The translations under genes and the position numbers were made by a program. This document shows, one piece after another, positions 24,781-50,498 of a DNA stretch of 64,000 bases; the stretch's first letter is position 1; the number at the start of each line of letters is the position of its first letter. This stretch comes from Citricoccus sp. SGAir0253. GTDB taxonomy: Bacteria > Actinomycetota > Actinomycetes > Actinomycetales > Micrococcaceae. The stretch spans positions 3,224,001-3,288,000 of the forward strand of contig NZ_CP039424.1 of NCBI RefSeq assembly GCF_005877055.1. Reading direction: 5' to 3'. The notes beneath the pieces were generated by a model. The model had not been told where the DNA came from. It saw only the letters and a list, made by a program, of their open reading frames with translations, and ran no database searches.

Positions 24781-24811
24781 GTCCCCGGCCCCCGCCGGAG
24801 TACCCACCCCC

Positions 24812-24856
24812 CAGCCGTCCCAGCCGTCCCAGCCGTCCCAGCCGTCCCAGCCGTCC
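24812..24856 (+). repeat. Five perfect copies of a 9-bp direct repeat
   Basis: The unit CAGCCGTCC repeats five times without error, between the SDR stop codon and the GAGGAGG ribosome site of the YCII gene at 24869. It lies outside any coding frame that I accept. Copy number could vary by slippage and alter the leader length. Confidence 0.95.
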
Positions 24857-25276: not shown

Positions 25277-26659
25277 TCAGCCGACGAGGCCGAGCAGGAT
25301 CCCGCCCACGGCCACCACTCCGGCGACCACCACGAACACGTTGGACAGCGCGCCGCGGAAGGGCGCCAGGGCGGGCACCTTCCGGATGGCGTACATGGGC
25401 ATCAGGTAGAGCACGGCGGCGATGACCGGCCCGGCCAACGACTCGATGAGCCCCAGGATGCTCGGGTTGAGCACGCCCGCCAGCCACGTGCTGGCGATGA
25501 GGAACACGCTGATGCCGATCCGCAGGGCGCGGTCGGGGATGCGCCGGGCCTGCGGGTCCACCATGCCGCGCACGATGCCCTGGGCGCCCTCGAAGGCGCC
25601 GAGCCAGTGGCCGAAGAAGGACGAGCCGATCGCGGTCACGGCCACCGCGGGGCCCAGCCAGGCGATGACCGGCAGGCCCATGACGTTGGCCAGGTGCGAG
25701 AGCACGGGCAGGTTGGCGTCCTTGGCCTCCTGCAGCCCCTCCGGGCCGAGGGCGAGCACGCAGGACCACACGAAGCCCATGGTGAAGACCACCAGCAGGG
25801 TCGCGGTGACGCGCAGGATGGAGGAGGCCTTCCGCACCGAGCCCGCGCCGTACTCGCGGCGCAGGGACAGGGAGAACTGGGAGATCGCCGGGGAGTGGTT
25901 GAAGGCGAAGACGAGCACCGGGATCATCAGCCACAGGGACATCCCGAAGTCGCCCGCGGCGGGCACGGCGCCGAAGCCCTCGAGGGACCAGGACGGGATC
26001 AGCAGCAGGGTGACGGCGAACAGCACGGCGATCAGCGGGTAGACGAGCCACTGGGTGACCACCAGCATGACGCGCTGGCCGGCCACCATCACGGCGGACA
26101 TCAGCAGCACGAGCACCCCGGACAGCAGCCAGCGCGGCCACGGGTCCAGACCGAGCTGGTTCACCATGAGGCTGTCCACGGTGTTGGTGATGCCCACGCC
26201 GTAGATCAGCACGATCGGGAAGATCGCCAGGAAGTACAGGACGGTGACCACGCGGCCGGCGGCCGGGCCGAAGTAGTCCGCCACCACGCCGGTGATGTCC
26301 CGGTCCGGGCGCGGGGAGGCGCACACCATGCGGGACAGGGCGCGGTGGGAGAGGTAGGTCATGGGCCAGATCAGCACCGTGGCGACCAGCAGCGGCCACA
26401 GCCCGCCCAGGCCGGCGTTGATCGGCAGGAACAGCACGCCGGCGCCCACGGCAGTGCCGAACAGCCCGATCGTCCAGCTCGTGTCGAAGCGGTTCCAGCG
26501 CGGCGCGGCGGGACTGTCGGCGGCGGGGCCGGCCGCGGTGCCGCCGGCTCGGCCCTCGCGGACGAGGGTGGCGGTCGGCGCGGCGGGGCCGGCGTCGGTC
26601 CCGACGGCGGCCGGGCCGGCCTCGGTCCCGGTGGCGGGCCCGGTGGGGCGGGGTTCCAT
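25277..26659 (-). CDS. HAAAP-family amino-acid permease (serine/threonine type)
   Basis: 460 residues. After a ~50-residue disordered lead the protein has 11 membrane helices, starting with WTIGLFGTAVGAGVLFLPIN, the usual TMH1 unwound motif of HAAAP transporters such as SdaC and TdcC. Other conserved runs: SRMVCASPRPDRDITGVVAD, VFAFNHSPAISQFSLSLRRE, and GSSFFGHWLGAFEGAQGIVR. It takes up an amino acid with a cation. Start ATG 26659 has AGGAG. The leader upstream is a tandem glycine riboswitch, so substrate or regulation involves glycine/serine metabolism (inference). Confidence 0.92.
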   Translation of the reverse strand: MEPRPTGPATGTEAGPAAVGTDAGPAAPTATLVREGRAGGTAAGPAADSPAAPRWNRFDTSWTIGLFGTAVGAGVLFLPINAGLGGLWPLLVATVLIWPMTYLSHRALSRMVCASPRPDRDITGVVADYFGPAAGRVVTVLYFLAIFPIVLIYGVGITNTVDSLMVNQLGLDPWPRWLLSGVLVLLMSAVMVAGQRVMLVVTQWLVYPLIAVLFAVTLLLIPSWSLEGFGAVPAAGDFGMSLWLMIPVLVFAFNHSPAISQFSLSLRREYGAGSVRKASSILRVTATLLVVFTMGFVWSCVLALGPEGLQEAKDANLPVLSHLANVMGLPVIAWLGPAVAVTAIGSSFFGHWLGAFEGAQGIVRGMVDPQARRIPDRALRIGISVFLIASTWLAGVLNPSILGLIESLAGPVIAAVLYLMPMYAIRKVPALAPFRGALSNVFVVVAGVVAVGGILLGLVG

Positions 26660-26701
26660 GGGTACTCCTCAGGTGGACGGGGGACGGTCGGTCCCTGCGT
26701 G

Positions 26702-26915
26702 TCCTCCCCGCTCTGTCCGTGGACCTGAGAGTGTTCGCGCCGCTCCGCCCGTTGCCGGGCGGCCCGCTTGCCCCGTCGGTGGCCGCGCGTGGGTGTGGCG
26801 GCGCTCTCCAGAGGTGCCCAGCGGTCCGGTACGGGTGCCTGTGAGTTTCCCGGGGAGGGCTTGCTCCGTCGGCGTCGCGCATCCGGGTGGAGCGGGATCT
26901 CTCCCGGACCGCTCA
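26702..26915 (-). promoter_or_regulatory. Tandem glycine riboswitch upstream of the HAAAP permease
   Basis: On the minus strand two consecutive aptamers show the glycine-riboswitch blocks. Aptamer 1 (26913-26820): P1 AGCGGTCCGG pairs perfectly with CCGGACCGCT; inside are CGGGAGAGATCC, CGACGGAGCAAG and AAACTCACAGGC. Aptamer 2 (about 26816-26702): CTCTGGAGAGCGCC, CACCGACGGGGCAAG, ACACTCTCAGGTCCA and GGACAGAGCGGGGAGG. The -10 (TACAGT, 26941-26936) gives a start near 26929. Glycine binding most likely alters termination or access to the AGGAG ribosome site. Canonical genes under such switches are glycine cleavage and Na-alanine/glycine carriers. Confidence 0.88.
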
Positions 26916-27033
26916 GTGGCTGATTCCGGGAGGACACTGTAATGCGCCTCACACGCGGGGGCGAATTCGCGCATCCGCCGCCGGGGGCGTATAAGCCGGT
27001 CCGGAGGCGCGGCCGGGCGGGCCGGTGCGGCGC

Positions 27034-27417
27034 TCAGTCCTGGTGCAGGCAGATGAGGTTGCCCACCGTGTCGTCCACCAGCGCGTCCGTGCCGCCGTAC
27101 TGCTGCCGGGTCGGCTCCATGACCACGCGGGCGCCGCGGGCCCGGACCTGCTCGAACTCCTCGGCACCGCCGGTCAGGGTCATCGCGAAGGCGGGTCTCC
27201 CCGCCGCGCGGGTCTCCTCCTGGTAGGCCCGCGCGGCACCCTCCGCACGGCCGAGCACCAGCGAGGCGCCGCCGTCGGGCCCCGGGGCGCGCAGCGAGAG
27301 CCAGCGGAAGTCCCCGGCGGCGTAGTCGGTCTCCACCTCGAGACCGAGCACCTCGGTGTAGAACCTCTTGGCGGCGTCCTGGTCGTCGACGAGCAGGTGG
27401 GCCTGGGTGATCTTCAT
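27034..27417 (-). CDS. VOC-family protein
   Basis: 127 residues. Glyoxalase-like unit: ITQAHLLVDDQDAAKRFYTE, VLGLEVETDYAAGDFRWLSL and the C-terminal MEPTRQQYGGTDALVDDTVG, where the end of the domain carries the substrate pocket. The second half of the metal-binding pattern is only partly visible, so activity cannot be claimed. The ATG at 27417 follows GGAGAGGACC. It is divergent from the FMN-reductase gene and shares a hairpin-containing promoter region with it. Confidence 0.9.
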   Translation of the reverse strand: MKITQAHLLVDDQDAAKRFYTEVLGLEVETDYAAGDFRWLSLRAPGPDGGASLVLGRAEGAARAYQEETRAAGRPAFAMTLTGGAEEFEQVRARGARVVMEPTRQQYGGTDALVDDTVGNLICLHQD

Positions 27418-44834: not shown

Positions 44835-44952
44835 GTCCGGCGGCGTCCTACTCTCCCACATCCTCCCGGATGCAGTACCATCGGCGCTGTGGGCCTTAGC
44901 TTCCGGGTTCGGAATGGGACCGGGCGTTTCCCCCACGCTATGACCGCCGTAA
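44835..44952 (-). rRNA. rrf: 5S ribosomal RNA
   Basis: 118 bases. On the minus strand it begins GTTACGGCGGTCATAGCG and ends ...GGACGCCGCCGGAC, forming the terminal helix, with the conserved CCCATTCCGAACCCGGAAGC in loop/helix II-III. Boundaries are accurate to a few bases. Confidence 0.93.
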
Positions 44953-45256
44953 CCCTGTGACCGCCCTGTCCGGGCCCGTGCCCCGCACTCCCCGGGTGGG
45001 GGGTGGGGTGGGCCGCCGTGTCGGGGGTGGCTTGGTGGTTACAACACTGTGGTTGCACTGTTCAATTGTACCCATACTGGGCCCCGGCCGGGCCCGGCGT
45101 GCCGGGGGGCTGGTGGGGTGCCCGGGGTGGTGCCCCGGGCTGGCCGCCCCCCGCGGGGGGTGGTGGTTCGGTCGGGTTGTTGTTCCGCAACCGCATAGTG
45201 GACGCTGCGCACCTGGCCCTCCCCGGCCGGTGAAGCCCGGCCCGGGGGTGGTGTTG
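44953..45256 (-). other. 23S-5S spacer of the rRNA operon
   Basis: About 300 bases with no tRNA gene. It contains CGGGTTGTTGTT and GCATAGTGGACGC (45173-45213), which are inverted copies of a segment in the 16S-23S spacer (48490-48532); they probably pair to form the 23S processing stem. Confidence 0.75.

Positions 45257-50498
<5,242 letters not shown>

Follow-up and report, generated by a model that had tools for sequence, protein, structure and literature searches.

On the minus strand of the window, by which we mean the whole stretch of 64,000 nucleotides analysed, two glycine riboswitch aptamers arranged head to tail precede the gene of an amino-acid carrier. Aptamer 1 (26817..26916) scores 52.0 bits with the RF00504 covariance model, whose gathering score is 32 (E 8.2e-8 when all 64 kb of the window are scanned), and aptamer 2 (26711..26813) scores 31.5 bits (E 2e-4 in a permissive scan of 26500-27100, 601 nt), a value half a bit below that gathering score, with which aptamer 2 alone fails the curated threshold. 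The linker between the two matches is 3 nt long and the start codon of the carrier gene is located 51 nt past aptamer 2. The covariance scan that an earlier note on this DNA had called for bore out the tandem glycine riboswitch proposed there, the span of 26702-26915 assigned to it agreeing with the RF00504 matches within a few bases, and the observation of a riboswitch at this site is confirmed as real and far from chance. The 10-bp P1 claimed for aptamer 1 is likewise present and perfect, and can be read in the sequence as AGCGGTCCGG / CCGGACCGCT. Of the four blocks quoted for both aptamers, GGAGAG is indeed common to the two, whereas CACCGACGGGGCAA, ACTCTCAGG and GGACAGAG occur in aptamer 2 only, aptamer 1 reading CGCCGACGGAGCAA and CTCACAGG at the places of the quoted blocks.

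The window copy shares with the tandem form of RF00504 the presence of two head-to-tail aptamers with a single platform, ahead of a translation start, and departs from it in having an SdaC-type carrier as target, an aptamer 2 that remains just below the gathering score and departures from the core in both aptamers. It is a riboswitch of the ordinary kind, whose novelty lies in its uncommon and coherent target. A leader-linker kink-turn is among the features of glycine riboswitches named in a passage of PMC12060979. Elsewhere in the window, a complete rRNA operon (16S, 23S, 5S) occupies 44835-50497 of the minus strand, and a 9-bp unit (CCCAGCCGT) is repeated perfectly in tandem (5.2 copies, 24810-24856) just before a YCII-domain gene.

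The carrier gene (25277..26659, minus strand) encodes a protein of 460 aa. In keeping with the claim that this is a serine/threonine-type carrier of the HAAAP family, the protein matches the serine/threonine transporter model TIGR00814 over its full length (454.8 bits, model positions 1-396 of 397) and is 47% identical to SdaC and 40% to TdcC of E. coli K-12, the two E. coli HAAAP proteins compared. Since the curated NCBIfam cut-off of TIGR00814 (525.8) is not reached, we call the carrier an SdaC-type relative and not a curated member. Its score with the TdcC model is 320.5 bits, that with Pfam Aa_trans falls just short of the cut-off (25.1 vs 25.6), no PDB sequence matches it at E<=0.1, and within its own genome it is the sole strong match, the one other, at E 0.98, being noise. 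E. coli SdaC is annotated as an L-serine:H(+) symporter, and the carrier is most likely an SdaC-type L-serine importer, with both the substrate and the inward direction being predicted from sequence. In addition to the level of identity, it has in common with SdaC, the product of sdaC-sdaB, a link to a serine deaminase, here represented by sdaA, which is located in the regulon described below and not in the operon; it differs from SdaC in its N-terminus, longer by ~35 residues (the alignment begins at residue 41 vs residue 6), and in the glycine riboswitch of its leader. In two related genomes, G002 (L038:2989-4365) and G003 (L042), an ion/dicarboxylate-transporter-like gene comes next after that of the carrier and may share an operon with it; in G002 the N-terminal piece of the transporter-like product matches Na_H_antiport_2 (82.5 bits) and the whole protein gives a weak match to DcuC_1 (40 bits, cut-off 100).

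Four tandem glycine riboswitches in one genome

The genome of the window (G000) contains eight RF00504 matches, which make up four tandem pairs having as targets gcvP, gcvH-glyA-sdaA, cycA and the SdaC-type carrier gene. The genes behind the other three tandems are all above their curated NCBIfam cut-offs, namely GcvP (1257.8 vs 859.2), GcvH (136.9 vs 115.85), serine hydroxymethyltransferase (590.3 vs 335), L-serine ammonia-lyase (575.6 vs 345.1, with 433 residues searched) and CycA, a D-serine/D-alanine/glycine transporter (754.8 vs 732). The shared handling of serine and glycine surmised for this locus finds support in these three sets of genes, and the four riboswitches apparently form one glycine/serine uptake-and-breakdown regulon.

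Among glycine riboswitches of Actinobacteria, 74% are stated to control genes of glycine cleavage and 22% other genes related to glycine (in a passage of PMC6944388), and in Streptomyces tandem glycine riboswitches are described as controlling gcvT-gcvH-glyA-sdhA operons (in part of PMC12452182). The tandem that precedes gcvH-glyA-sdaA in the genome of the window resembles these Actinomycetota operons as they are depicted there, whereas the tandem of the window adds a serine carrier through a separate leader. A tandem ahead of an amino-acid carrier is also known from S. pyogenes, where it is placed before a sodium:alanine symporter gene (sections of PMC5829553; ‘transport’ class in PMC6944388), but the carrier of the window is of the HAAAP/SdaC type and a terminator scan of its leader found no terminator-like site. 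The serine carrier is an extension of a known theme of glycine riboswitches.

The composition of the regulon bears also upon the glycine export that the earlier note had envisaged. If the carrier exported glycine or serine, the riboswitch would switch export on for detoxification, a use for which there is a parallel in Streptomyces griseus, where PMC5829553 cites a glycine riboswitch as activating a system of detoxification; however, this is very improbable, SdaC, the nearer of the two E. coli proteins used for comparison, being annotated as an L-serine:H(+) symporter and cycA belonging to the same regulon. Judging from these similarities, the carrier more likely imports serine than exports glycine, and glycine export is disfavoured.

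The possibility that the window riboswitch was recently copied from another leader of the same genome is not supported by the tandem tree, in which the three carrier-type tandems form a group of their own (100/100, branch length 0.65), apart from both the gcvP type and the gcvH/sdaA/cycA type of the genus.

Other leaders display features of their own. Between the riboswitch and gcvH (in G000, L033) or sdaA (in G002, L037, and G003, L041) there is an ORF of 45-47 codons, 46 in the case of G000, with a Shine-Dalgarno-like site of its own. In three species (G002, G003 and G004; L040, L044 and L045) a tandem glycine riboswitch precedes an ORF of 114-120 aa (MTNARA...), for whose G002 form no Pfam or NCBIfam match was found. 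Finally, in L181 (G008:C1:424450-426900) and L184 (G138:C35:146500-149050) the tandem stands before a gene for a DUF5058 membrane protein (PF16481, 152.9 bits on a 156-aa piece of the G008 protein, that of G138 being alike by eye), followed by a second membrane-protein-like gene, a piece of whose product has no Pfam match; neither whole protein has an NCBIfam match, and the two constitute a candidate glycine transporter pair.

Expression platform and direction of control

The expression platform (26660..26710, minus strand), delineated from the sequence and its folds, comprises the CGGGGAGG element, a GGGAC/GTCCC hairpin and the Shine-Dalgarno sequence GAGGAG (26670-26665, minus strand). Of the 18 leaders of the genus, 17 have the Shine-Dalgarno-like CGGGGAGG directly 3' of aptamer 2, in various gene contexts, and the eighteenth (that of cycA in G000) has GGGGGAGG in its place. 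Just upstream of aptamer 1 lies TGTGAGGCGCATTACA (26938..26953, minus strand), and similar stretches are found before the carrier in relatives; it may represent a -10 region (TTACAGT) or a CRP/GlxR-like site, and a scan with the sigma-70 consensus returned no promoter-like site.

We regard it as moderately probable that the tandem glycine riboswitch placed before the gene of an L-serine importer is a translational ON switch belonging to a regulon for glycine/serine uptake and breakdown, glycine binding, substrate, import, level of control and direction being what we infer. Glycine binding would stabilise aptamer 2, whose 3' strand (ACUCUCAGGU and the following bases) would be kept off the Shine-Dalgarno site or the start codon; translation of the serine importer would in this way be turned on, and the importer would thereby join gcvP, gcvH-glyA-sdaA and cycA in the regulon. 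Translational ON is the likely mode on account of the logic of the regulon, the habit of the family and some mild support from modelled folds. Actinobacteria are reported to favour translational platforms (passages of PMC6944388 and PMC12452182) and the glycine riboswitch of Streptomyces griseus mentioned above is cited as activating; against an ON switch, the actinobacterial operon is described, in part of PMC12452182, as acting when glycine is scarce.

In the lowest-energy unconstrained fold of aptamer 2 and platform, ACUCUCAGGU of the window is base-paired to ACCUGAGgAGU, which spans the Shine-Dalgarno site, and the partner of GGUCCAUGG in the two sister leaders (G002 and G003) is CCAUGGAACC, in the region of the start codon, their Shine-Dalgarno being unpaired. 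In these models, which are devoid of tertiary contacts, the aptamer 2 fold can be forced at a cost of about 7 to 18 kcal/mol. With fragments extending to the AUG, the mean predicted openness of the Shine-Dalgarno changes upon forcing from 0.19 to 0.58 in the window, from 0.47 to 0.58 in G002 and from 0.27 to 0.58 in G003, and that of the AUG from 0.80 to 0.99, from 0.55 to 0.99 and from 0.81 to 0.99, respectively. With fragments that include 25 nt counted from the A of the AUG, the corresponding changes are 0.30 to 0.45, 0.79 to 0.55 and 0.75 to 0.54 for the Shine-Dalgarno and 0.52 to 0.55, 0.00 to 0.58 and 0.04 to 0.41 for the AUG. Altogether, the forced fold opens the AUG in six of six and the Shine-Dalgarno in four of six comparisons (three leaders, two lengths). 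An earlier comparison of free and bound states had yielded opposite signs for the window (0.28/0.54) and the sisters (0.89/0.71 and 0.88/0.68). Pairing between the 3' strand and the initiation region is equalled in strength by 3 of 54 control gene starts in the case of the window and by 8 of 54 in that of each sister; when longer stretches are used, the controls as strong number 9 of 80 for the window and 16 of 80 for each sister, so that the modelled pairing is not clearly, and at most modestly, above that of ordinary gene starts. Approached in four ways (two duplex-vs-control tests, the free/bound comparison, the unconstrained and the forced folds), the choice between ON and OFF by folding was not decisive.

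The same riboswitch and a serine/glycine importer could also work as an OFF switch, with high glycine stopping the import of those amino acids from which the glycine pool is supplied. Such a behaviour is attributed, in sections of PMC5829553, to the tandem glycine riboswitch of S. pyogenes, which represses the sodium:alanine symporter gene, and the bound model does lower the openness of the Shine-Dalgarno in the two sister leaders when the longer fragments are considered; yet the same model raises the openness of the start codon in every one of the comparisons, and the riboswitches endowed with the same CGGGGAGG element include those of gcvP and gcvH-glyA-sdaA, whose role in breakdown leads one to expect induction by glycine. 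An OFF switch is unlikely, though to be taken seriously.

Distribution and evolution of the leader

In the family, the carrier is matched at E<=0.001 in 50 of 295 genomes, some of these matches being fragments, and a riboswitch lies within 3 kb of it in three of the 50 (G000, G002 and G003), the search for RF00504 in the 49 carrier genomes beside G000 having been made with stricter filters, by which some weak matches are lost. At the level of the order the carrier is found at E<=1e-60 in 9 of 396 genomes, with no RF00504 match at E<=0.01 in the five carrier genomes outside the family, and in a phylum sample it is present in a single genome of 396, which is G000. RF00504 at the gathering score is absent from all 80 named relatives sampled (Nesterenkonia, Kocuria, Rothia, Shewanella, Aeromonas and others), whose sequences were taken with as much as 3 kb of flank; they are the best 80 of at least 592 candidate stretches, from which records near the genome of the window may be left out. 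The pairing of riboswitch and carrier is lineage-restricted among the genomes searched; no paper pairing a glycine riboswitch with a serine transporter was found in open-licence PMC texts, supplements aside, a listing elsewhere being possible.

The carriers of G000, G002 and G003 belong to one clade (97/90) and their leaders align end to end. The window tandem is 90.5 and 94.3% identical to those of the two sisters and the platform 90 and 92%, the coding stretch being 88% and the upstream flank 75 and 73% identical; a compensated C-G/U-A change is seen in P2 of aptamer 2 in G002. The window copy departs from the core, in that its aptamer 1 has CUCACAGG vs the near-invariant strand CUCUCAGG and CTCACAGG (26845-26838, minus strand) where relatives read CTCTCAGG, the changed base costing P3 an A-U pair according to the Rfam pairing read from the alignment. 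Aptamer 2 keeps CUCUCAGG but has, as aligned with the sisters, one additional base in the bulge ahead of CTCTCAGG (near 26733). Core and bulge are regular in the G002 and G003 orthologues, and in the 76 aptamers of 38 tandem leaders (18 from the genus and 20 from other genera) CTCTCAGG is exact in all but two, the exceptions being aptamer 1 of the window and aptamer 2 of G223 (CTCGCAGG).

Decay, tuning and sequencing error are possible origins of these departures. That the changes in both aptamers altered the ligand response, towards serine or towards a weaker, serine-tolerant response to glycine matched to the serine carrier, is extremely improbable. The window copy might instead be a decaying riboswitch that senses glycine poorly and is en route to the aptamer-free leader of three species of the same genus (G001, G005 and G007), whose carriers have a shorter leader with no RF00504 match nearby, even at E<=10 in G005 and G001, which were scanned permissively. 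Besides the departures of the two aptamers from the core, the lower scores of the window (52.0/31.5 bits vs 62.0/45.1 in G002 and 62.1/41.6 in G003) would agree with decay, but the identity of the tandem to the sisters is above that of the flank and not below that of the coding stretch, and P1 of aptamer 1 is intact.

Relict aptamers would be a further sign of decay. Plain blastn of the leader against G001, G005 and G007 gave no match at E<=0.05, and since blastn-short at E<=10 returned many chance matches among these GC-rich leaders, local alignments were instead compared with those of 500 dinucleotide shuffles, the queries being, in this order, G000c, G002b and G003b. For the aptamer part the shuffles as good were 3, 9 and 17 of 500 in G005, 2, 50 and 5 in G001 and 241, 205 and 213 in G007, compared to 218, 50 and 225 in the outgroup G051 and 378, 237 and 213 in the outgroup L100. 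For the platform part they were 0, 1 and 0 in G005, 0, 0 and 0 in G007, 96, 312 and 198 in G001, 151, 283 and 309 in G051 and 23, 274 and 304 in L100. Thus, G005 shows a weak and collinear but significant similarity to aptamer 2, which is mostly significant in G001 too and is not so in G007, and that to the platform is significant in G005 and G007, but not in G001. The trace kept in G005 and G001 agrees with decay, and the results for G007 and with blastn speak against it. On the whole, decay of the window copy is quite unlikely.

In the carrier tree G001, G005 and G007 are placed together (95/95) and the junction of their group with that of G000, G002 and G003 is without resolution; G001 and G005 keep beside the carrier some of the neighbour genes of the window. 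Loss of the riboswitch in the former group is a little better supported than its gain in the latter, and these close species, in which the same carrier does or does not have a riboswitch ahead of it, lend themselves to a natural comparison of how the riboswitch is gained or lost. To the targets of the glycine riboswitch the locus adds a rare one, a probable importer of serine, while what a glycine riboswitch is stays unchanged; the finding suggests that in this organism uptake and breakdown of glycine and serine are run as one glycine-sensing regulon of four riboswitches.
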